DNA of 64,000 nt from Alistipes sp. (GTDB lineage: Bacteria > Bacteroidota > Bacteroidia > Bacteroidales > Rikenellaceae): positions 17,862 to 81,861 of the forward strand of contig JAGBXR010000023.1 in assembly GCA_017629145.1 (NCBI GenBank), read 5' to 3'. Under the pieces are notes generated by a model, which searched no databases, was not told the DNA's origin, and was given only the letters and a program-made list of their open reading frames with translations. A program made the position numbers and the translations under genes. Shown in pieces: positions 8,122 through 29,474 of the stretch (position 1 is its first letter; each line of letters starts with the position of its first letter).

Positions 8122-8145
8122 GTAAAAAAAGTTAAAAATTAAAAA

Positions 8146-8267
8146 GGAAATTGCAGAACAAGGCTACTTTGGTGTTGCGCTTGCTCTCAAAATGCTCATT
8201 TACGCATAGTAAACTCCGCTTTTTCGAGCTGCGTGCGCCTAAAATTAGCTCTTGTTCTGCAATTTCC
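8146..8267. repeat. Intergenic hairpin repeat, copy R3 (full length)
   Basis: This 122-base element has perfect 17-base outer arms: GGAAATTGCAGAACAAG at 8146-8162 and its complement at 8251-8267. The middle stem is GCTCtcAAAA at 8183-8192 with TTTTcGAGC at 8221-8229. The inner stem is TTTAC at 8199-8203 with GTAAA at 8209-8213. It has the same layout as R1, R2 and R5 with different stem sequences. Confidence 0.75.
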
Positions 8268-8298
8268 CTACGGCAGACTGTGTCCAAAACGAAATATT

Positions 8299-8397
8299 TT
8301 GGTGTTGCGCTTGCTCTCAAAATGCTCATTTACGCATAGTAAACTCCGCTTTTTCGAGCTGCGTGCGCCTAAAATTAGCTCTTGTTCTGCAACTTCC
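8299..8397. repeat. Intergenic hairpin repeat, copy R4 (left arm missing)
   Basis: This is a direct repeat of R3 (8169-8267) at an offset of 130 bases, with a single mismatch over 99 bases as far as I can count. The left outer arm is absent, so the right arm has no partner here. It looks like a recent partial duplication of R3. Confidence 0.75.
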
Positions 8398-8403
8398 TGA
8401 CGA

Positions 8404-8441
8404 AAGAGGGTGCCCATACTACACTACGCTGGACACCCTTT
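8404..8441 (-). terminator. Possible terminator after the transglutaminase-like gene
   Basis: The stem AAGGGTGTCC...GGGCACCCT on the minus strand (about 8406-8440) lies just past the stop at 8464. It is followed by CTTTCG, so the T-tract is short. Confidence 0.5.
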
Positions 8442-12283: not shown

Positions 12284-12323
12284 TTTGTTTCGTCGGAAAA
12301 TTTGTATATTTGTAATACCTTTG
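12284..12323 (+). promoter_or_regulatory. Promoter of the first peptide/lipoprotein cassette
   Basis: TTTG at 12284-12287 and TATATTTG at 12305-12312 lie 17 bases apart. A second box, TACCTTTG, is at 12316-12323. The peptide gene starts about 60 bases downstream. Confidence 0.6.
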
Positions 12324-12384: not shown

Positions 12385-12516
12385 ATGGAGACAAAATTCT
12401 ATGATTTCTATCTCGCACCCTCTGTAGAGGTTGTCGAGGCGCAGGTTGAGGCAGGCTTTGCCGAGTCGGAGAATCTCGAGGATCCTGTGGAGGATGAGAC
12501 TCAGGGCTGGTATTAA
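12385..12516 (+). CDS. 43-residue peptide, copy 1, upstream of a fimbrillin-like lipoprotein
   Basis: This short gene encodes METKFYDFYLAPSVEVVEAQ followed by 23 more residues, ending in an acidic stretch and GWY. There is no signal peptide, membrane segment or cysteine. The net charge is strongly negative. It lies about 60 bases after a promoter and 36 bases before a large lipoprotein gene. A second copy at 15775-15906 has only three base differences in 132 and a single Thr-to-Ile change, and stands in the same position before a paralogous lipoprotein. That conservation, compared with the diverged lipoproteins, supports a real product. From memory, short acidic peptides of this kind precede fimbrillin-like genes in other Bacteroidales. 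The function is unknown. Confidence 0.75.
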   Translation: METKFYDFYLAPSVEVVEAQVEAGFAESENLEDPVEDETQGWY

Positions 12517-12552
12517 TCCGCGCTAACTACTAACTTAAATACTTGTAAACGT

Positions 12553-15500
12553 ATGAAAAAAGTTATATTTTCGCTACTTGCCGCTCTCTGTTTCGCGGCT
12601 TGTACACAAAACGACGTCGAGGAGCTATCTTCCAATCGAGTATATCTTCCCGACCAGATTAGTGTCGGTTTCGAGAATGACGACACTCGTATCCAGCTTT
12701 CGAATGGTAAGACCGTATGGAACGAGGCTGACCGCATTTCGGTATTCTATCAGAGCTTCGACAACCTTATGTGGGAGTTCCAGGGCGTGGATGGTGACCG
12801 TACCGGCACATTCGAGCTTATCGATGGCAAGGTCGGCGAGAAGATGATGGATGATGTTATTGTTGTATATCCATACAATGCTGACTACCTTGTAAATGTC
12901 AACACCAAGAGTGTCGAGGCATCTATCCCTGCTTTGCAGAACTACTACCCCGAGAGCTACGATCCCGAGAGCAACCTTATGATATCTCTCGGTGATGACA
13001 GCAACTTCGTGCTCAAGAACGTGTCTGGCTGGGTTAAGATTCAGCTTACGGGTAATGGCGAGGAGGTGCAGTATATCACATTGCGCGGCAACAACGACGA
13101 GTTGCTGGCTGGCGATGTATACCTCTCGGCGAGCGATGCTTCATTGAGTTTTGCTTCGGGCAACGACTCATCTGCCGATGATGACCTCGAGGTAGGTGGT
13201 GACCTGGTATTCGACAGTGCGGAGCAGAAGAGCATCACACTTGAGTGCTACAATACAACGCTTTCGTCGGAGCCAAAGGCTTTCTATATTGCACTTGCGC
13301 CACAGAACTTCGAGAATGGTTTCACCGTAGAGGTTAAGTGCAAGGGTTATGCCCCTATGGTTCTCAACAACACCGCAACAACAACCATCGAGCGCAACCA
13401 CATCAAGCCTATGGAGGCTGTCGCATTTGAGAGTGAAAGCGTGGCAGAGTACGATGTGCTTTTCGAGGCACAATACATTTCAGGTCTTTACTATGACAAA
13501 CAATATGGTAACGGATACAACTATTATGCTTACCTCTCTGATGCGAATATTGGTGAACCCGGCGGCTTAAGTGGGGATTATGTTATATATGCGCTTGACA
13601 TCTATTCTGACACTCCCGCTGATGAGATTGCAACTCTACCACAAGGCGAGTACATTTTAGATACAGACAATACTGCAGAGCCTGGCACTTTCGGCTATGA
13701 GTACAGTCATTATGAGCAAAAACTCATCGACTCAGAATTGAATGTAGTAAAGTTTAAGGAAGGCACACTTGTTATTACCGAAAACTATATTGAGGCTGTT
13801 TTACTTTTGGAGAATGGCGAGTGGCATAAGGTGATCTACTCAGGTAATCTTGCACTCATTCCTGAAATATCTACTTATGAGCAAATAGGCATCGTTGGAT
13901 CTTTCAACGAGTGGCGCGACGATCTCTTTATGCAATATGACGAGGTGCTAGCTCTTTACTATGCTCATAACTTGTGGTTTGATGAGGGTTGTGAGTTCAA
14001 ACTTCGCAAGGATGCCGACTGGGAGGTATACTGGGGTGCTGAAGGTCAGTCATATATCAATACTAACTCATATATGTATCTCACACAGGGCGGCAACAAT
14101 AATATCGTTGTTCGCGAGAGCGGTTATTACGACATCTACTTCTCGCTACAGCTTGGCGTAATCTTCTTTATGGAGCCTGGCGTCGACATTAACAATGCAG
14201 TCGAGGATACGGGTGATGATGATGTTAACAATGGCGACGAATATCCTCTACTCGATATGCCTAACATCTACACCTTCGAACCAGGCTTGACATCTGCCTA
14301 TATGGCTTGGGAGCCTGTTGAGAATGCAGCGGGATATGAGGTATATCTATATCCTTATGCATATCCCGAATATTCATACCAAACTCTACTTGACGCCGAT
14401 ACTACCGAGTACACATTCGAGGATCTAACTGCTGGCTATTACAACTTTGGAGTATATGCTGTTGCAGCTGATGACTCAGGCTATAATGATTCAGATTCAT
14501 CTGCATTTGGCTATATCTGGATTGAGGGTAATCCCCAGCCAGAGGTAGATTGGTTCAGTGTCGAGGTCTATAGCAAGACAGATGAGGAGCTAGGTATTTA
14601 CCCATCTAACTCTATGTACTTCACTTGGAATGGCGCAAATGTAAAGACATTGAGGTATGGTATATTTGAATACACCGCGAATGAGCTTAAGGAGTTTGGT
14701 TGGCATACTATATATGACAACTTAAATTATATTTCTACTGATGAAATCAATCATTTTGTTAATGGATCCGAATATTATTTCGAAGGTTTAGCAGCTAATA
14801 CAACCTGGACATTCGTAACATACGCTGTAAACTACGATGGCGAGGAGTTCTTGTCGTATGTAGAGTACACAACTGAGGATATCGTGCTTAGCGAAAATAC
14901 AGCAAAGTGGCTTGGCGAGTGGCGAGTAACTACATATAAGACATTTATTCTATATGGGGATGGCAGCAATGAAGTCGTAGATGGAGGCGATGAATTTACA
15001 TTGAATATCACAGCGTCAAGCAATGATCCCAACGAACTATATGTCGATGGTCTTAGCGTCTTGGGTGAGGGTTGGCCAGTTCCAGCCTATGTTGACAACA
15101 ATGGCGATCTTTACATCTTCGGCGGCACAGCTGCAGACATATATGAAGATAATATCTACTATTACTGGGTAACATGCTACCAATATGATGACACAAGCAA
15201 CGATTCATACTTCAGTATTGATGTTGCTCCTGTCTACAAATTCAGTATGAGTAGTACTAATACTGCTCACGGTGATCCTGTTCCAACATATAGTGGAGTA
15301 AACGACTTGGGAGAGGAGACCTATGCAACACCTCTATCAATGGAGGTCTATCTTCTAAATTTGGATACTGGTGGCCTTTCCTTCTTGACCGAGTCACTCC
15401 CAGTAAATTACCGTTCAGGTGCTATGGATATGGTTAAGATTGAGGAGCCAGCGCAGCAGAGCGTAGCACCTAAGGGCTTACAGAGCTACAAGATCGCAAC

Positions 15501-15567
15501 CGAGAAGAAGCAGCGCCGAATGCCTTCAGGAATGATTAGTACTAACTCTGTTGTATTCAAGATGTAA
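12553..15567 (+). CDS. Large surface-type lipoprotein: fimbrillin-like, SusE/F-like and fibronectin III modules
   Basis: This 1004-residue protein has a lipoprotein signal (MKKVIFSLLAALCFAAC, Cys17), followed by QNDVEE, an acidic start typical of surface-exported Bacteroidetes lipoproteins. Residues 20-300 form a fimbrillin-like module: DDTRIQL, TVWNEADRISVFY, VVYPYN, SNLMISLG, LRGN, FYIALAPQ and ERNHIKPM. A module near residues 440-540 (IGIVGSFNEW, FKLRKDADWEVYWG) resembles SusE/SusF glycan-binding domains. Next comes a fibronectin type III-like module (about 570-660: AYMAWEPVENAAGYEVYLYPY). The last 340 residues are not recognised. It probably sits on the cell surface and may bind glycans; the role is inferred. 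It is paired with the upstream peptide gene. Confidence 0.82.
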   Translation: MKKVIFSLLAALCFAACTQNDVEELSSNRVYLPDQISVGFENDDTRIQLSNGKTVWNEADRISVFYQSFDNLMWEFQGVDGDRTGTFELIDGKVGEKMMDDVIVVYPYNADYLVNVNTKSVEASIPALQNYYPESYDPESNLMISLGDDSNFVLKNVSGWVKIQLTGNGEEVQYITLRGNNDELLAGDVYLSASDASLSFASGNDSSADDDLEVGGDLVFDSAEQKSITLECYNTTLSSEPKAFYIALAPQNFENGFTVEVKCKGYAPMVLNNTATTTIERNHIKPMEAVAFESESVAEYDVLFEAQYISGLYYDKQYGNGYNYYAYLSDANIGEPGGLSGDYVIYALDIYSDTPADEIATLPQGEYILDTDNTAEPGTFGYEYSHYEQKLIDSELNVVKFKEGTLVITENYIEAVLLLENGEWHKVIYSGNLALIPEISTYEQIGIVGSFNEWRDDLFMQYDEVLALYYAHNLWFDEGCEFKLRKDADWEVYWGAEGQSYINTNSYMYLTQGGNNNIVVRESGYYDIYFSLQLGVIFFMEPGVDINNAVEDTGDDDVNNGDEYPLLDMPNIYTFEPGLTSAYMAWEPVENAAGYEVYLYPYAYPEYSYQTLLDADTTEYTFEDLTAGYYNFGVYAVAADDSGYNDSDSSAFGYIWIEGNPQPEVDWFSVEVYSKTDEELGIYPSNSMYFTWNGANVKTLRYGIFEYTANELKEFGWHTIYDNLNYISTDEINHFVNGSEYYFEGLAANTTWTFVTYAVNYDGEEFLSYVEYTTEDIVLSENTAKWLGEWRVTTYKTFILYGDGSNEVVDGGDEFTLNITASSNDPNELYVDGLSVLGEGWPVPAYVDNNGDLYIFGGTAADIYEDNIYYYWVTCYQYDDTSNDSYFSIDVAPVYKFSMSSTNTAHGDPVPTYSGVNDLGEETYATPLSMEVYLLNLDTGGLSFLTESLPVNYRSGAMDMVKIEEPAQQSVAPKGLQSYKIATEKKQRRMPSGMISTNSVVFKM

Positions 15568-15610
15568 ACAGAGGGTCTCCATTTCCCTAAAATGGAGTAT
15601 GATTTATGCC

Positions 15611-15645
15611 GGGCTGTCTGATTCAGGCAGCCCTTTTTGTTTTTA
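15611..15645 (+). terminator. Terminator after the first cassette
   Basis: GGGCTGTCTG pairs with CAGGCAGCCC around ATT, followed by TTTTTGTTTTT. Confidence 0.88.
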
Positions 15646-15668
15646 TAGTAGATTAGATAGCGTAAAAC

Positions 15669-15699
15669 TTTGAGTTAATAGAAAAAATTTGTATATTTG
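15669..15699 (+). promoter_or_regulatory. Promoter of the second peptide/lipoprotein cassette
   Basis: TTTG at 15669-15672, a 19-base spacer and TATATTTG at 15692-15699 match the Bacteroidetes consensus exactly. The peptide gene starts about 75 bases later. Confidence 0.7.
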
Positions 15700-15774
15700 T
15701 AGTGACTATATGCCCATCACACTTGGGCAAGAGCTACGATCACCAAGGAATAAAAACAAAAAAAATAAAAGCTT

Positions 15775-15906
15775 ATGGAGACAAAATTCTATGATTTCTA
15801 TCTCGCACCCTCTGTAGAGGTTGTCGAGGCGCAGGTTGAGGCAGGCTTTGCCGAGTCGGAGAATCTCGAGGATCCCGTGGAGGATGAGATTCAGGGCTGG
15901 TACTAA
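15775..15906 (+). CDS. 43-residue peptide, copy 2, upstream of a fimbrillin-like lipoprotein
   Basis: This is a near-exact duplicate of the peptide gene at 12385-12516. Three of 132 bases differ, and one residue differs (Ile instead of Thr near the C-terminal GWY). It lies 37 bases before the second large lipoprotein gene and 75 bases after a consensus promoter, so the whole arrangement is repeated. The flanking lipoprotein genes are much more diverged. The peptide gene is therefore either held by strong selection or kept alike by gene conversion. Protein export signals are absent. A regulatory or chaperone-like role for the following lipoprotein is possible but unproven. Confidence 0.75.
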   Translation: METKFYDFYLAPSVEVVEAQVEAGFAESENLEDPVEDEIQGWY

Positions 15907-15943: not shown

Positions 15944-18900
15944 ATGAAACGCATATTATTTTCGCTGCTTGCCTTGTTCGCTTTAGCAGCTTGTTCGCAG
16001 AACGATGTCGAGGAGGTATCGTCGGACAGACATTTCAAGGCCGACCCTATCACCGTAGGCTTTGAGAATGAAGATACACGTATTCAGCTCTACAACGGCA
16101 AGAGCGCGTGGAACGCAGGCGACCGCGTATCGGTCTTCTATCGTAGCTTCGATAACCTCAAGTGGGTATTTACGGGCGAGGATGGCGACCGCAATGGTCA
16201 GCTTGAGCTGGAGGAGGGTAGCATCGGCAAGCAGGTGATGAACGACATCGTTGTCGTATATCCCTACAACGAGAACTATCTTTTGAGCCTCTCGACAAGA
16301 ACTGTCGAGGCGCAGGTCTCTGCACAGCAGAACTATCTCCTCGATAGCTACGACCCTGCGTCAAACCTTATGATTGCTTGCAATGAGGATCGCAACTTCG
16401 TGCTTAAGAATGCATTCGGATGGCTCAAGGTCGAACTTACGGGTGAGGGTCAGAATGTCCAAAATCTAACTCTTCGTGGCAACGATGGTGAGATTCTGGC
16501 TGGCTACGTCGCTGTGGCGTTTGATGATGCTGCGGCAGAGTTCATCGGTACATCATTCGTCGAGCCAGATAACGACGAGGAGGTTGGCGGTAGCCTCGAT
16601 TTCAATAGTTCGTCGGACAGCATTACGCTTCGATGCTCGGGCGTGGAACTCTCGTCAGAGGCGTGCGCATTCTACTTCGCGCTTGTTCCACAGACCTTCG
16701 AGAAGGGTATCACCGTAGAGGTTAAGTGTCGCGGTTATGAGCCTATGGTGCTCTCGACTGACGATGCGGTGGAGATTAAGCGTAACCACATCAAGCCTAT
16801 GGCAGTGGTTGAGTTCGAGGCCGAGGAGGTTGAGGGCAGCGAGATTCCAAATAACGAGATTTGGTATACTGCAACCGAGCAGATATGGCCAAATTACGAG
16901 GGGGACTTTGGCGCAACGCTTATTAACAACTACTATGACGAAAGTACGGGTGAGGGTATCCTAGAGTTCGATGGCGAGCTTACAAGGATTCCAAATGATG
17001 CATTCTATGAGTGCGACAGCCTTACAAGTGTCACTATCCCCGATAGCGTAACTACGATTGGATATAGAGCATTCTATATTTGCTGGAACCTTACAAGCAT
17101 TACTATCCCCGATAGCGTAACGACGATTGGAGATGATGCATTCGCTGATTGCTGGAGCCTTACAAGCATTACTATCCCCGATAGCGTAACGACGATTGGA
17201 AAGAGGGCATTCGCTCATTGCGAAAGCCTTACAGAGTTTAACGGCAAGTTTGCATCTGAGGATGGCAGATGCTTGATTGTTGATAGTACGCTCAACTCAT
17301 TTGCACCTGCAGGTCTTACAGCATACACTATCCCTGATAGCGTAACGACGATTGGACGTTTTGCATTCTATTCTTGCTGGAGCCTTACAAGCATTACTAT
17401 TCCCGATAGCGTAACGACGATTGGAGAGGCTGCATTCTTTGAGTGCGAGAGCCTTATAAGTGTCACTATCCCCGATAGCGTAACGACGATTGAAGAGGCT
17501 GCATTCGCTTATTGCGAAAGCCTTACAGAGTTTAATGGCAAGTTTGCATCTGAGGATGGCAGATGCTTGATTGTTGATGGTACACTCAACTCATTTGCTC
17601 CTGCAGGTCTTACATCGTACACTATCCCTGATAGCGTAACGACGATTGGACAGGAGGCATTCGCTTATTGCTGGAGCCTTACAAGTGTAACAATTGGCGA
17701 TAGCGTAACGACGATTGGAGATTATGCATTCTATTGGAGCATCAGCCTTACAAGCATTACTATCTCCGATAGCGTAACGACAATTAGAGCTAATGCATTC
17801 CGTGAATGCTACAGCCTTACAAGTGTCTATTGCAAGGCTACGACACCGCCAAGTTTGGGTAGCAATGTATTTGATTTCAACGCCTCAGATCGCTTGATAT
17901 ATGTTCCTGATGAGTCGTTGGATGCATACCTCAATGCCGATGGCTGGCGCGACTATGCAGACGCTATCTTAGGCTACGACTTCGAGACGGGCGAGATCAC
18001 AAAGCCAAGCATTAACCTTGGTGTTTGTGGTACATTCACAAACTGGGGTCAGGATGGCGAGCTCGATATCGCTATGGAGTACCTCGATGATCGCAATTTA
18101 TATGTTGCATACGGCATCGAGCTAACAACCGACGATCGCTTCAAGCTACGCTCTAACAACGATTGGTACGGTCGTTACAACATCGGATCAAGCTACAATG
18201 GCTATGTAGCATATCCTAACTTCTTGACAGAGGTAATCAACGGCCTAGACTCTCAGGATATCTTTGTAGCGGAGAGTGGCACCTACGATATATATATCAA
18301 CCTCGACACTATGGAGCTCTACGTTATGGTCGAGGGCACAGATCCCGATACAGCATCCGATATGGAAAATGTTGAGTGGATCAGTATGGGCTACGGCACA
18401 TATGTCGATGACTTCTTCTGGGTTATAGTAGGTGATAGCTCATTAGTCGGAGCTATGGCTGAGATTGAGTTCCAGCAACATCCTTACAATCCTAATCGCA
18501 TTCGTGTTGTTAATCCATTCTCGGAAGATGTCATCTACCAAATGTATGGTGTAGTTCCATCTTGGTATTCTTGGAATGGTGTTGATACCTATCTTGAGTT
18601 TAATATATCGGATCCAAACAATGTCCGATTAGAGAGTGATCAAGTGCCTCTCGGATTCCAATTGGATTTTGATGGCTGGCGTGATGTCTATCTTACATCT
18701 TTTGACTCCTACAATATTAAACTTGAGAACGGTATAATTAGCTATACTCCACTATCTATTGGTCTTACCTACTTTTATGACAATGAGCTTAATGGTTGGT
18801 ACGCAAATATGTATGCTTGTATGCAGTATGCTCTTCCAGGATATGAGCCTAAAGACTACAGATTCAAGGCAGAATACACGGGCAGTGACGAAAATAACAT

Positions 18901-19702
18901 TGCTTACTTCGATATGAAAGTAGGCAAGGATATCGATAAGTATGCTGTAGCTGTCGTAAAAGGTGATGCCAATGTAGATATTGTAGCACAGGCAATCATA
19001 GATGGTACTGCAGAGAATATTATTGAATACTCTGGAGATCAGACAAATGTAGATATTGAACTTACCCCTGGTCTCTACACTTTTGTTGCTGTTCCATATA
19101 GTAACGGAGAACCACTAAGTCCATTAAGAATTGCCTATATTAACTTCTTCCACGAAGGCGATGGCTCATTTGGTGCTCAAGAGTTAGAGATTGGGTTCAC
19201 GGTGGATATCGTAGCCAATTTCTTCCCGGAAGATTGGGCGGCTATGAATGAGCAGTACCCAGGATGGTATTGTTACGGCTTTAGCGTTACAGCAGATAAA
19301 CCAGAGTATGTAGAGTATGTACGCGTAGGAAATTGCGCATACGAGGAAGCACATATCGATGGTGAGGAGATCTCTGATCAAAGAATTGAGGAAATATTGG
19401 CTCAGTATGGCACCAGATATTTGGGCAGTATAGTTAATGGAGGTATATATGCAAACACTTTTAGATCAACCACTCGCGAGTGTATTGTTATGGCTGTAGA
19501 TACATACTACAACACAACACAGTACTACCACGTCGACTACGATGTACCCGCTAAAACAGAAGAGGTTAGAAGTGCAGCTACATTCGCAACACTAAAGAGC
19601 GTTGTCTATAATGCCGAGGCAGAAAAGGCTGCGAAAAATCAGTCCAAGTCTAACGTCGTTCAGTTCTCAAAACCAAACTTGAGCAACGTCATACGCTTCT
19701 AA
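15944..19702 (+). CDS. Large surface-type lipoprotein: fimbrillin-like module, BspA-type leucine-rich repeats, SusE/F-like module
   Basis: I place the start at 15944 because it gives a clear lipoprotein signal (MKRILFSLLALFALAAC) followed by SQNDVEE. The longer open frame from 15821 overlaps the peptide gene. The protein has 1252 residues. Residues 20-300 are the fimbrillin-like module shared with the preceding lipoprotein. From about 340 to 640 there are about ten BspA/LRR_5-type repeats built on LTSITIPDSVTTIG-AF, two of them carrying a 29-residue insert. After them comes a SusE/SusF-like module (CGTFTNWGQDGELDIAMEYL, FKLRSNNDWYGRYNIG). The last 400 residues are unrecognised. Such repeats usually mediate adhesion or host-protein binding; that is inference here. 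Confidence 0.85.
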   Translation: MKRILFSLLALFALAACSQNDVEEVSSDRHFKADPITVGFENEDTRIQLYNGKSAWNAGDRVSVFYRSFDNLKWVFTGEDGDRNGQLELEEGSIGKQVMNDIVVVYPYNENYLLSLSTRTVEAQVSAQQNYLLDSYDPASNLMIACNEDRNFVLKNAFGWLKVELTGEGQNVQNLTLRGNDGEILAGYVAVAFDDAAAEFIGTSFVEPDNDEEVGGSLDFNSSSDSITLRCSGVELSSEACAFYFALVPQTFEKGITVEVKCRGYEPMVLSTDDAVEIKRNHIKPMAVVEFEAEEVEGSEIPNNEIWYTATEQIWPNYEGDFGATLINNYYDESTGEGILEFDGELTRIPNDAFYECDSLTSVTIPDSVTTIGYRAFYICWNLTSITIPDSVTTIGDDAFADCWSLTSITIPDSVTTIGKRAFAHCESLTEFNGKFASEDGRCLIVDSTLNSFAPAGLTAYTIPDSVTTIGRFAFYSCWSLTSITIPDSVTTIGEAAFFECESLISVTIPDSVTTIEEAAFAYCESLTEFNGKFASEDGRCLIVDGTLNSFAPAGLTSYTIPDSVTTIGQEAFAYCWSLTSVTIGDSVTTIGDYAFYWSISLTSITISDSVTTIRANAFRECYSLTSVYCKATTPPSLGSNVFDFNASDRLIYVPDESLDAYLNADGWRDYADAILGYDFETGEITKPSINLGVCGTFTNWGQDGELDIAMEYLDDRNLYVAYGIELTTDDRFKLRSNNDWYGRYNIGSSYNGYVAYPNFLTEVINGLDSQDIFVAESGTYDIYINLDTMELYVMVEGTDPDTASDMENVEWISMGYGTYVDDFFWVIVGDSSLVGAMAEIEFQQHPYNPNRIRVVNPFSEDVIYQMYGVVPSWYSWNGVDTYLEFNISDPNNVRLESDQVPLGFQLDFDGWRDVYLTSFDSYNIKLENGIISYTPLSIGLTYFYDNELNGWYANMYACMQYALPGYEPKDYRFKAEYTGSDENNIAYFDMKVGKDIDKYAVAVVKGDANVDIVAQAIIDGTAENIIEYSGDQTNVDIELTPGLYTFVAVPYSNGEPLSPLRIAYINFFHEGDGSFGAQELEIGFTVDIVANFFPEDWAAMNEQYPGWYCYGFSVTADKPEYVEYVRVGNCAYEEAHIDGEEISDQRIEEILAQYGTRYLGSIVNGGIYANTFRSTTRECIVMAVDTYYNTTQYYHVDYDVPAKTEEVRSAATFATLKSVVYNAEAEKAAKNQSKSNVVQFSKPNLSNVIRF
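17019..17820 (+). repeat. Near-identical tandem repeats inside the lipoprotein gene
   Basis: A 69-base unit containing GATAGCGTAACGACGATTGG recurs about nine times with few changes. A longer block, beginning TTGCGAAAGCCTTACAGAGT at 17218, recurs at 17512, giving a 294-base super-repeat. This is coding sequence for the leucine-rich repeats and a likely place for repeat-number change by recombination. Confidence 0.85.
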
Positions 19703-26315: not shown

Positions 26316-28559
26316 ATGGGTTTTATGAGATTCTTAAAGTATTTGTCGCTCTGCACTGCACTCCTTGGTGTTGCTTGTGCGCAGGACGACATTATTGGTT
26401 CAGGTGCCGCTGAGCACTGCTCATCACGTGAACTTGTCGTAGCATTCGAGGCTGACGACACACGTGTTCAGCTTAACGACGATCGCAAGACGGTGTGGAC
26501 AAATGATGACCGTGTGGCTGTATACTATGCTTCGGGTAGTGTCGAGGAGTGGATGTACAACGGTGCAACAGGTGAGCGCTATGCGTCGCTTGTGCCTGTG
26601 TCAAACTCGACAGTGAGCGATAGCGACACGATGATGGCTATGGCATATCCCTATAGCTCGGATTTCAAGTTCGATGTTGCAGGCTCTTCTCTCAAGGCTA
26701 TGCTCCCAGCTACGCAGAAATATCTGGCAGGCAGCTATGGTGTAGGTGCAAACCTTATGGTTGGCAATGTGGGTAACCCCACAACTATGCGTAACGTATG
26801 CGGTTGGTTGCGTCTCGAGGTTACGGGTAATGGCGAGAAGGTGATGAGCATCGCGCTTCGTGGTAATCGCAATGAGCAGGTGTCGGGCGAGATTATCGTT
26901 GACACGGAGGATGCATCGTCGAAGCTTACCGAGGATAGTAGCAAGGCCTATGGTGTGGTTGTTCTCGATTGCGGTGATGGTGTGACACTCTCGGCGAAGG
27001 CTACAATATTCTACATTGCGTTGCCTCCACAGAAGTTCTCAAAGGGCCTTAACGTAGAGCTGTTGTGTAGCAATGCCGAGGTTATGACCCAGACGACCGA
27101 GAATAGCATCACTATTTCGCGCAATGTGATCACTCCTATGGAGTCATTCGCATTCAAGGCCGATAGCCAGGAGCTATCAGAGGGCTTCTACCCTTCAGGC
27201 AAGGAGGTGTGGTACAAGACATATTCAGGAGGTTTGATGGCGATTAACGGCTCACCATTCAACGCAACTGTAAAGTCGAACAAGACCGTAGAATTGTGTG
27301 TCAACGATATGTGCCGTATTATCAACTGCATCACTTGCGATAAGACGGTTACAAGCGTTGAGGCTATGTCGTTCCTCTACAGCGAGTTGGAGTCTATCTA
27401 TCTTCCACACAGCGTAACCAGCATCGGTGCATCATCGTTCCTTGAGAGCTTAGACCTCTACGAGGTACACTTTGGTAAGGGTCTCAAGAGCATCGGTCAG
27501 GGTGCTTTTGCCAACTGCTCATACCTCCGATATATCTACTGTCGTGCTGCGGTGCCTCCAACCATCGGCGAGTATGCCTTCTTGAGCGATGCTGAATCGA
27601 GCTACAACTATGTAGGTGCACGAATCTATGTTCCTGCGCAGTCGGTAGCCCTCTATAAGAGTGCCCCAGGCTGGAGTAAGTTTGCAAACTACATCGTAGG
27701 TTACGACTTTGTTAAGGGTGAGGAGAGCAGCGTAGTCATCGGTGGCGATAGCGATGAGGATGATGAGTATGTTGACGATGGCACATTCACCGGCAGCAAC
27801 TTCAACCACCGTTTGCTACTTATCGACCATACAGGTATGGATTGCGGTTATTGCCCCGAGATGACCGATCGTCTGCACGCACTTTCAGAGTCGAAGTATG
27901 CAAACTACTACTACGAGGTGCAGTGCCACGGTGGTGGTTATGCTACAGGTGGCGACCCGGGATACTCGGCAGCAGCTGCTGTTGTAGATGCTTTCCATCG
28001 CGGTAAGAGATTTATTACGGGTTACCCAACAGCTTGTGTTAACTTCCTCTATGGCTCGGTTAGCCGTGGTAATACAGACGATGCGTTTGTTAGAAATATG
28101 GGTAACGTCTTCAACGCTGTACGCAACAACTTTGGTGCGGAGGCTGGTATCGCCATTAGCTCAAAGATAGAGTCCAACAAGGTTAAGGTTGATATCGAGG
28201 TGACATCGGCCAAGAGCCAGAACTACAAGGTGACTGCGTGGGTGCTCGAAAACGATATCTACTCGCCAAATCAGAGTGGTGCTAGTTCGGTGCTTCACCG
28301 CACCTACAACCACGTGCTTCGTGCTATCGGTGGCGCATATAGCTCAAGCGATATCTCGGGTGATGCACTCGGTCGAATCGCTGCTGGCGAGAAGGCAACC
28401 AAGAGCTTCACAATCGATCTCAACAGCAGTTGGGTTAAGAGTAACCTCGAGGTGCTTGTTATTGTCAGCGCACCTAACGCTAATAACGAGTACGAGGTTG
28501 TGAATACAGCTCTCTGCCCTGCAAATGGCAGCTGCGACTACGAGCCTGTACAGAACTAA
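26316..28559 (+). CDS. Lipoprotein: fimbrillin-like module, BspA-type repeats and Omp28/thioredoxin-like domain
   Basis: This 747-residue protein has a lipoprotein signal ending LGVAC followed by AQDD, which fits surface export. The start could also be the ATG three codons in. Residues 25-280 are the fimbrillin-like module (DDTRVQL, TVWTNDDRVAVYY, YPYSS, NLMVG, LRGN, FYIALPPQ, SRNVITPM). Residues 300-480 hold a few BspA/LRR_5-type repeats (YLPHSVTSIGASSF, GKGLKSIGQGAF). The C-terminal 240 residues begin LLLIDHTGMDCGYCPEM, a CxxC motif in a thioredoxin-like setting, and resemble the Omp28 family. A redox or adhesion role outside the cell is possible. No 43-residue peptide gene precedes it. Confidence 0.8.
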   Translation: MGFMRFLKYLSLCTALLGVACAQDDIIGSGAAEHCSSRELVVAFEADDTRVQLNDDRKTVWTNDDRVAVYYASGSVEEWMYNGATGERYASLVPVSNSTVSDSDTMMAMAYPYSSDFKFDVAGSSLKAMLPATQKYLAGSYGVGANLMVGNVGNPTTMRNVCGWLRLEVTGNGEKVMSIALRGNRNEQVSGEIIVDTEDASSKLTEDSSKAYGVVVLDCGDGVTLSAKATIFYIALPPQKFSKGLNVELLCSNAEVMTQTTENSITISRNVITPMESFAFKADSQELSEGFYPSGKEVWYKTYSGGLMAINGSPFNATVKSNKTVELCVNDMCRIINCITCDKTVTSVEAMSFLYSELESIYLPHSVTSIGASSFLESLDLYEVHFGKGLKSIGQGAFANCSYLRYIYCRAAVPPTIGEYAFLSDAESSYNYVGARIYVPAQSVALYKSAPGWSKFANYIVGYDFVKGEESSVVIGGDSDEDDEYVDDGTFTGSNFNHRLLLIDHTGMDCGYCPEMTDRLHALSESKYANYYYEVQCHGGGYATGGDPGYSAAAAVVDAFHRGKRFITGYPTACVNFLYGSVSRGNTDDAFVRNMGNVFNAVRNNFGAEAGIAISSKIESNKVKVDIEVTSAKSQNYKVTAWVLENDIYSPNQSGASSVLHRTYNHVLRAIGGAYSSSDISGDALGRIAAGEKATKSFTIDLNSSWVKSNLEVLVIVSAPNANNEYEVVNTALCPANGSCDYEPVQN

Positions 28560-28574
28560 TAACTATTGCCGTAT

Positions 28575-29474
28575 ATGATAGCTCTATGTTTCGCTCTCCT
28601 TGTGGCAATCACGTTTGCATCCTGCACAACGGCTGGGTGTGACGATATAGTGCCACAGCGCGTGGGCGAGGCTATGCCTCTTGAACAGCTCTATCTGGAG
28701 TTCGATTGCAGCGACCTATCGCGCGTTGAACTTCGTGAAGGTCGAAGCGTGTGGAGCGAGGGCGATTGTGTCTCGGTATACAACTTCTCGAACGTAAATC
28801 AACGTTGGATGTTCGATGGGCAGAGTGGCGACCGTTGTGGTAGCTTCTCGCCTATCGATATAGGCGGCGAGGGTCGTGCTACGGAGTATCTCGTGGTGCT
28901 CTACCCCTATAGCAGCAACTATTGGCTCAACAGCCGCAATGGTAACGTCGATGTGATGTTTGCCGAGGTACAGCACTACAAAGAGGATAGCTTCGGTGTA
29001 GGCTCTTCGATAATGGTTGCAATGGGCGATGCAAATGATGTACTCGAGGGCCTGAAGCTGCGCAACGTGTGTGGCTGGTTGCGTCTGCACCTCGTGGGTA
29101 GCGACAAATCTGTCGCATCGATACGATTGTGGGGCAACGATGGCGAGCAACTTGCAGGACGCGCTTATCTCAACGCGGCAGATGCTACGCTGCAACTTGT
29201 CTCACAGCCACAACTCGGCGAGGGGGGCGATGTGGGCGGAACGCTCATCTTTCCTGGAGATATTGTCGAGGTTGTGACGTTGGAGTGTGGCGGTGTCGAG
29301 CTTGGTGTCGAGGCAAAGAGTTTCTACTTCGCGCTGCCACCAATCAGCCTTGCGAAGGGTTTTACGGTTGAGATATGTTGCGCAGATGGCACTACAATGA
29401 CACGTAGCACAACCAAGCGTATAGATATTGTGCGCAACCACGTACATCCTATGCGCGAAATAGTTGTCGAGTAG
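28575..29474 (+). CDS. Lipoprotein consisting of a single fimbrillin-like module
   Basis: The ATG at 28575 gives a lipoprotein signal, MIALCFALLVAITFASC; a TTG three codons upstream is possible but unlikely. The 299-residue protein contains only the module that starts the three larger lipoproteins of this window: SVWSEGDCVSVY, LVVLYPYSS, SSIMVAMG, NVCGWLRL, LWGNDGEQLAG, FYFALPP and VRNHVHPM. It lies 15 bases after the preceding lipoprotein gene, so the two are cotranscribed and may form a complex. By analogy with fimbrillin-like proteins it may act as an anchor or minor subunit; this is inference. Confidence 0.8.
   Translation: MIALCFALLVAITFASCTTAGCDDIVPQRVGEAMPLEQLYLEFDCSDLSRVELREGRSVWSEGDCVSVYNFSNVNQRWMFDGQSGDRCGSFSPIDIGGEGRATEYLVVLYPYSSNYWLNSRNGNVDVMFAEVQHYKEDSFGVGSSIMVAMGDANDVLEGLKLRNVCGWLRLHLVGSDKSVASIRLWGNDGEQLAGRAYLNAADATLQLVSQPQLGEGGDVGGTLIFPGDIVEVVTLECGGVELGVEAKSFYFALPPISLAKGFTVEICCADGTTMTRSTTKRIDIVRNHVHPMREIVVE

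Follow-up and report, generated by a model that had tools for sequence, protein, structure and literature searches.

Short peptides encoded ahead of modular lipoproteins in Alistipes: probable RiPP-type precursors linked to PqqD and an HprK-like kinase

Introduction

Lasso-peptide pathways of the paeninodin, pseudomycoidin and BsfA types combine a PqqD-type B1 protein, the recognition element (RRE) for ribosomally synthesized and post-translationally modified peptides (RiPPs), with an HprK-like kinase and a nucleotidyltransferase. According to the available text of PMC10368454, PqqD-type B1 proteins read a Tyr-17/Pro-14/Leu-12 spacing in the lasso leader, and the HprK-like kinase BsfK is stimulated by the RRE and phosphorylates Ser3 of the core; HPr kinases, PqqD proteins and nucleotidyltransferases are reported as lasso co-genes in the accessible part of PMC7533575. 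A PqqD chaperone (TIGR04353) and an HprK-related kinase (TIGR04352) are also paired in the HPr-rel-A system. Among surface proteins, the type V fimbrillins (FimA/Mfa1) of Bacteroidales are closest, and Mfa1 is processed at Arg49 by gingipains (excerpt of PMC5954841). The window analysed here, a stretch of 64,000 nucleotides from an Alistipes sp. assembly (GCA_017629145.1, contig JAGBXR010000023.1, positions 17,862 to 81,861), carries two nearly identical open reading frames (ORFs) for a 43-residue peptide, each followed by a lipoprotein gene. These ORFs are members of a large, so far unnamed peptide family. We consider it fairly likely that they encode RiPP-type precursors, whose leader would be read by PqqD and whose acidic tail, once the precursor has been phosphorylated, cleaved and exported, would be matched to its lipoprotein.

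The present loci share with the lasso pathways a YxxP[LVI]-like leader, a PqqD chaperone (lasso_PqqD is among its best NCBIfam matches, below cut-off), a kinase with the same catalytic residues, an ATP-binding cassette (ABC) exporter and, in some loci, a PF14907 nucleotidyltransferase. They differ in showing no recognised B2 or C gene, with an S24/S26-type peptidase instead, and in having dispersed precursors that are paired with lipoproteins. The likeness to HPr-rel-A lies in the pairing of PqqD with an HprK-related kinase (weak matches, E 6e-4 and 4e-4) and in export-like neighbours, named by eye, at two loci (L291 and L292); however, the source-genome proteins score 19.1 of 200 bits and 21.1 of 35 bits and do not reach the curated cut-offs. 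Like type V fimbrillins, the lipoproteins have a lipobox and an apparently equivalent invariant arginine downstream of the lipid-bearing cysteine (52 aligned rows). In contrast to them, they have variable LRR, fn3 and Big_2 modules and gave no fimbrillin match in Pfam, NCBIfam or PDB sequence searches, so that the label 'fimbrillin-like', applied in a first-pass annotation of the window, is not confirmed. The peptidase resembles S24/S26-type enzymes (archaeal-type signal peptidase I, Ni-SOD maturation protease): G.SM.P, HR and GDGN are conserved in 90% or more of 21 aligned rows, and there are weak matches to TIGR02228 and TIGR02754, with Pfam S24 just above cut-off in the scanned Alistipes proteins; it differs from these enzymes in having no clear transmembrane segment and in being tied to PqqD and the kinase.

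A large peptide family with a conserved leader and a variable acidic tail

Homologues of the peptide were found in 36 of 61 genomes, the source genome counted, by sequence search at E<=1. A profile of 30 rows (E<=0.001) had matches in 117 of the 175 Rikenellaceae genomes, and as many as 24 of them in a single genome; recurrence on this scale is far beyond chance. Outside Rikenellaceae the family is sparse: an order-level profile search matched 16 of 392 genomes, 4 of the 16 being Rikenellaceae, a class-level search with the first profile matched 5 of 296, and an order-level search with a looser profile and a looser cut-off matched 23 of 296. Loci were sampled from 100 places among the best-scoring matches listed, a choice biased towards high scores, together with eight places in the source genome. 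One place without an ATG-started peptide ORF (L081) was dropped, which left 107 peptide ORFs, 106 of them distinct. A 108th match, at E 0.69 inside a lipoprotein (L088), was discarded as well; the reading of genes at these loci misses those overlapped by longer ORFs.

A Y..P-x9-E.G motif is present in all 106 distinct peptides; residue 28 is serine in 100 of them and threonine in 6, and 96 carry A, S, T or G at position 26. The conservation of this core motif is partly built in, because members were picked by profile. Beyond residue 28 follows a variable tail of 6–23 residues, net negative in 106/106, with a tryptophan among the last four residues in 76 (mean 26 and maximum 40 in 1000 shuffles); the strongest conservation sits in the middle of the peptide rather than at its end. 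Leader similarity is unrelated to tail similarity or to lipoprotein similarity in an all-pair comparison. All 106 profile-chosen peptides thus have the build of a RiPP precursor, short and genetically encoded, with a conserved leader and a variable core. Pooled over 98 close pairs, which overlap and are not independent, the ratio of nonsynonymous to synonymous differences (pN/pS) is 0.245, with pS at 0.64 and near saturation. The constraint is therefore on the protein and not on the DNA, and the peptide conservation noted in the first-pass annotation is borne out by the homologues and by this ratio.

No Pfam model matched any of 30 family members scanned, one of the 30 matched an NCBIfam model (a lasso-peptide model at E 0.06, chance level), no PHROGs model matched the window peptide, and no signal peptide was seen in it. 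The passages on related systems that were searched in the literature contain no description of this peptide family: in the accessible text of PMC12710340 and PMC7470986 none of the looked-for terms occurs, that of PMC10885120 has one, in its references only, and the text of a survey of RiPP clusters in Bacteroidales (PMC10352776) has neither Alistipes nor fimbri-. A looser superfamily of small YxxP peptides occurs in other Bacteroidales (L042 in genome G215 and L161 in genome G239), for example MNKNYIKPSITVVEMEIESLL.

Co-occurrence with PqqD and an HprK-like kinase

The chance-level lasso-peptide match led us to test PqqD as a lead. PqqD (PF05402) was found in 46 of 61 Alistipes genomes, all 46 of which are peptide-positive at E<=0.001; among the 15 genomes without a PqqD match none is peptide-positive and none has a kinase match. 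The HprK-like kinase was searched for with a profile from 18 loci, two of them in Alistipes (G373 and G027); the genomes matched were the same 46, the lists being compared by eye. Most genomes have one PqqD and one kinase, against up to 24 precursors. A RiPP system is expected to have an RRE/PqqD protein and modifying or processing enzymes tied to the precursor, and here PqqD and the kinase are seen in 46/46 positive and 0/15 negative Alistipes genomes, with gene linkage in five genomes. In a second set, PqqD was present in 14/14 further peptide-positive Rikenellaceae, in 0/9 peptide-negative Alistipes genomes and in 0/2 profile-unmatched genomes of genus g205. Outside Rikenellaceae, 11 of 12 genomes with a peptide match have PqqD.

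A RecQ tree covering 30 of the 61 genomes requires no fewer than six changes in the PqqD state, three of them forced by well-supported branches. PqqD adjoins recQ in 14 of the 15 positive genomes on this tree (the exception is G030), and eight negative genomes keep the next gene of the recQ locus without PqqD (G423, G450, G362, G446, G445, G357, G448 and G380). Because of these changes and of the absence of PqqD from recQ loci that are otherwise kept, the association between peptide and PqqD is a repeated one and not the legacy of a single clade.

Linkage of the peptide to a putative processing locus

Loci were read in 19 genomes, chosen partly because matches lay close together. The peptide is linked to the PqqD and kinase genes in five of them, and in four also to the S24/S26-type peptidase and the ABC exporter. 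At L293, peptide, N-domain lipoprotein (see below), ABC exporter, S26-type peptidase, PqqD and kinase follow one another on one strand; at L290, peptide, kinase, S26-type peptidase, PqqD, PF14907 nucleotidyltransferase and ABC exporter are contiguous. The order at L291 is PqqD, nucleotidyltransferase, kinase, two polysaccharide-export-like genes (so named by eye, as at L292), peptide, lipoprotein, OmpA-like gene, S24-type peptidase and ABC exporter, and L292 agrees with it as far as the lipoprotein. In the Alistipes locus L239 the peptide–lipoprotein pair stands head to head with PqqD, ABC exporter, kinase and S26-type peptidase, and an operon of genome G055 joins the peptide to the enzymes with no lipoprotein adjoining. 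The remaining Alistipes loci that were read have these genes in two places, PqqD beside recQ and the kinase elsewhere with the peptidase; kinase and peptidase stand together in 14/14 fetched Alistipes loci, and the ABC exporter was detected in 11. The source genome has PqqD on contig C30, divergent to recQ, and ABC exporter, kinase and peptidase on contig C6.

Neither B2 transglutaminase-like nor C Asn-synthetase-like genes were recognised by eye in the loci read, whole genomes not having been searched, and Pfam scans of genes from L290, L291, L239 and L340 gave no B2 or C gene. At L234, L235 and L236, the Alistipes PqqD gene shares a conserved locus with genes for a TonB-receptor-like protein, an HMA-type protein and a His/Cys-rich protein some 140 residues long, and a tie of this PqqD locus to metal is possible.

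The adjoining lipoproteins and their covariation with the peptide tail

A lipoprotein gene is next to the peptide at 103 of 107 loci (95 called by a lipobox rule, 8 judged by eye), with a median spacer of 21 nucleotides; a similar lipobox rule holds for 95 of the 103 partner genes and for 42 of 309 background genes. Aligned over 52 rows, the partner N-termini have two invariant residues, the lipobox cysteine (C17) and an arginine (R46), along with a nearly invariant tryptophan. The arginine lies 29 residues past the lipid-bearing cysteine and is a candidate processing site. A profile of this shared N-domain matched 51/51 out-of-sample partner lipoproteins, and the distal modules behind it are unrelated among the proteins scanned (LRR_5, fn3, Big_2, Lcl_C and DUF4465). 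PDB sequence searches with the lipoproteins matched signal peptides and otherwise gave nothing beyond short matches to WD-40 and nanobody sequences. Conversely, among 30 N-domain lipoproteins whose loci were read in nine genomes, partly chosen for their peptides, 20 have a peptide just upstream.

Tail identity rises with N-domain identity (Spearman 0.40, Pearson 0.59 over 103 pairs; 0 of 200 permutations as high). The corresponding values are -0.04 for the leader (165/200 permutations as high) and 0.02 for the 60 nucleotides upstream (51/200). The spacer DNA (0.09; 10/200) and the signal peptide (0.06; 7/200) lie between the tail and the N-domain, yet they track the N-domain weakly or not at all. 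A score-based version gave 0.71 for the tail and 0.02 for the leader. These values support a functional match between tail and N-domain.

Two further ideas were rejected. A profile comparison gave a probability of 1% for a resemblance between the peptide and the lipoprotein's own N-terminus, and a search of other proteins for the peptide tail at their C-termini gave one clear case, at L181, and a second, chance-like match. L181 (contig C8 of genome G015) is a 234-residue ORF that ends in the peptide-tail-like HRIQDPIEAPKIEW, two nucleotides before an N-domain lipoprotein, and resembles a fusion at what was once the tail of a peptide gene. In the source genome, the peptides at L035 (contig C7) and L039 (contig C46) lie directly before an HAD-phosphatase-like and a purine-nucleoside-phosphorylase-like gene (names given by eye).

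A proposed maturation pathway

As predicted from sequence comparison, RRE binding, phosphorylation, cleavage, export and contact with the lipoprotein could proceed as follows. Residues 1–28 would form a leader common to all paralogues and be bound by one PqqD (RRE) protein encoded elsewhere, which would hand it to the HprK-like kinase, with Ser/Thr28 as the probable site of phosphorylation. PqqD would also present the precursor to the S24/S26-type peptidase for removal of the leader, and the ABC exporter of the kinase–peptidase locus would carry the tail out. The tail, acidic and usually with a tryptophan near its end, would be matched to the adjoining lipoprotein and most likely act on or with its N-domain, in the periplasm or at the surface.

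The kinase alignment retains H, G, G, G, K, S, D and D, of which one glycine is nearly invariant and the DD lies two residues further on; these are the residues of lasso-precursor kinases (PMC10368454, as far as its text was available). With a cut at F25|A26, Ser/Thr28 would become core residue 3, the position that BsfK phosphorylates, and only given this cut do Y9, P12 and V14 match the -17/-14/-12 spacing of lasso leaders (residue 14 being hydrophobic). Signal peptidases and enzymes like them follow a small-x-small cleavage rule. An alternative cut after Ser28 would fit both this rule and an S24/S26-type peptidase.

If this pathway is real, the PqqD and HprK-like genes that stand alone in these Bacteroidales would gain a substrate family, and RiPP-type maturation would be joined to the modular lipoproteins of common gut commensals. 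A ratio of up to 24 precursors per genome to mostly one PqqD and one kinase is unusual. More tentatively, and with the balance of our judgement slightly against it, Bacteroidales may use a single RRE-guided kinase–peptidase–exporter pathway to make many short phosphorylated acidic peptides, each serving one surface lipoprotein as its dedicated plug, cap or co-factor; in that case a pathway for peptide natural products would have become a surface-protein assembly system.

Alternative explanations and points against the pathway

The first-pass annotation had proposed a translated partner of the lipoprotein, namely a chaperone, regulator or leader. Protein-level conservation and the lipoprotein next door keep the partner itself in place, and its function as a cytoplasmic chaperone or cis regulator is less favoured, because the two-part peptide and the presence of PqqD and the kinase in the same genomes point to a processed, exported precursor. 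Control or coupling of lipoprotein translation by ribosomes that are translating the peptide would agree with the short spacer and with the promoter-like element found ahead of the peptide at 44 of 107 loci (see below), but we regard such a cis-acting leader as improbable: the peptide shares its 46 of 61 genomes with two genes encoded in trans, the G055 operon joins it to enzymes with no lipoprotein beside it, conservation peaks in mid-peptide and four peptides have no lipoprotein next to them. An unprocessed cytoplasmic chaperone or escort for the lipoprotein precursor, as the lack of a visible signal peptide and the 103 adjoining lipoproteins might suggest, seems more improbable still, as it leaves the link to PqqD, kinase, peptidase and exporter unexplained.

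An antimicrobial or signalling RiPP, for which the lipoprotein would be receptor, immunity protein or mere neighbour, would share the processing steps with the proposed pathway, and it draws on the fact that PqqD, HprK-like kinase, PF14907 nucleotidyltransferase and ABC exporter are lasso co-genes too and that the precursors are multi-copy with variable tails. We nevertheless think it unlikely, given up to 24 copies per genome, a lipoprotein with a shared domain and varied modules beside 103 of 107 peptides, the covariation of tail and N-domain, and loci that, as far as they were read, showed no recognisable LasC/B2-like gene. Recombination at the peptide ORF is evident: promoter–peptide, N-domain and distal parts are shuffled among loci in mosaic fashion, as in the pairs L048/L051 (identity 0.91 upstream, 0.85 in the ORF, 0.53 in the lipoprotein) and L048/L055 (0.57, 0.80 and 0.92), and the two window copies are identical over their first 101 nucleotides with diverged flanks. 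That the ORF is kept mainly as a crossover site for swapping promoters and lipoprotein modules is nonetheless the least credible of these explanations, since constraint falls on the protein and the ORF tracks the trans genes; recombination is likely a consequence and not the function. The near-identity of the window copies fits a small ORF that was converted or duplicated recently, with which the mosaic combinations are consistent, and the gene conversion suggested in the first-pass annotation is in this sense real, as conversion or mosaic exchange.

Several observations weigh against the proposed precursor pathway. Among 116 within-genome pairs the contrast in covariation is reduced, with 0.44 for the tail against 0.27 for the spacer, 0.24 for the leader and 0.23 for the signal peptide, and the spacer and signal-peptide correlations given above are close to the permutation limit. 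Co-inheritance may account for part of the covariation, and faster decay of the spacer and signal peptide could mimic part of it, which is why the covariation supports a functional match without proving it. Four peptides (L061, L065, L035 and L039) lack a lipoprotein next to them, 10 of the 30 N-domain loci lack a peptide, the window itself holds two such lipoproteins, and four peptide-negative genomes gave five N-domain matches, one of them strong, in 800 kb, with none in one genome; the peptide is therefore an accessory to some N-domain lipoproteins and not a requirement of all. Outside Rikenellaceae, four of the 11 peptide matches accompanied by PqqD are weak (E 0.002–0.005); G215 and G239 belong to the looser YxxP superfamily, and in G829 and G711 a lipoprotein does sit behind the peptide. 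G622 has a peptide match without PqqD, in a frame with no ATG, GTG or TTG ahead of the motif, and of 28 non-Rikenellaceae genomes that lack a peptide match, 16 have PqqD (one of the 16 below cut-off). The genome-by-genome co-occurrence covers PqqD and the kinase, the peptidase and ABC exporter being known from the loci read, and the kinase, peptidase and PqqD matches all lie below NCBIfam cut-offs. Finally, the genes recognised beside the peptides include none of the radical S-adenosylmethionine, lanthipeptide or macrocyclase kind, so that phosphorylation and trimming may be all that the product undergoes, which would stretch the term RiPP.

The two copies in the window

The window lies within contig C18 of an assembly of 1.62 Mb that is 76% complete (Table 1). 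As the first-pass annotation had it, the two peptide ORFs differ at 3 of 132 bases and in one residue: base 102 (CCT/CCC), base 116 (ACT/ATT, Thr/Ile) and base 129 (TAT/TAC). Flank identity is 38% over the 60 nucleotides upstream and 67% in the spacer. The spacing to the lipoproteins (36 and 37 nucleotides), the divergence of the latter (65% identity across the first 930 nucleotides) and a separate promoter-like element before each copy likewise hold. This element, AAAATTTGTATATTTGTA, contains TATATTTG, which we take to be a Bacteroidetes-type promoter motif; across the family, TAnnTTTG lies within 150 nucleotides upstream at 44 of 107 loci (mean 11.8 and maximum 20 in 300 shuffles of 2-base blocks).

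Table 1. Features of the peptide loci and related lipoprotein genes in the window
Feature	Position	Strand	Remarks
Promoter-like element, copy 1	12297..12314	+	AAAATTTGTATATTTGTA; TATATTTG at 12305-12312; read from sequence
Peptide gene, copy 1	12385..12516	+	43 residues; family-profile match E 3.9e-18
Putative leader, copy 1	12385..12468	+	Residues 1-28; Y9..P12, E22.G24F25A26.S28
Variable acidic tail, copy 1, proposed core	12469..12513	+	Residues 29-43, ENLEDPVEDETQGWY; from net charge, Trp position and covariation with lipoprotein N-domain
Lipoprotein 1	12553..15567	+	1004 residues; lipobox Cys17, Arg46, shared N-domain, weak fn3
Promoter-like element, copy 2	15684..15701	+	AAAATTTGTATATTTGTA; TATATTTG at 15692-15699; read from sequence
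Peptide gene, copy 2	15775..15906	+	43 residues; T39I relative to copy 1
Lipoprotein 2	15944..19702	+	1252 residues; same N-domain, LRR_5 repeats
N-domain lipoprotein without recognised peptide	26316..28559	+	LRR_5, Omp28 modules
N-domain lipoprotein without recognised peptide	28566..29474	+	302 residues, TTG start; tandem with 26316..28559

In Pfam, LRR_5 in lipoprotein 2 is certain and fn3 in lipoprotein 1 is below cut-off. The frame of lipoprotein 2 has a second possible start upstream, a TTG at 15821 in overlap with the peptide; translation from the ATG at 15944 yields the signal peptide. Away from these genes, a direct repeat of roughly 95 bp occurs twice at about 8130–8440 of the window, as seen by eye.

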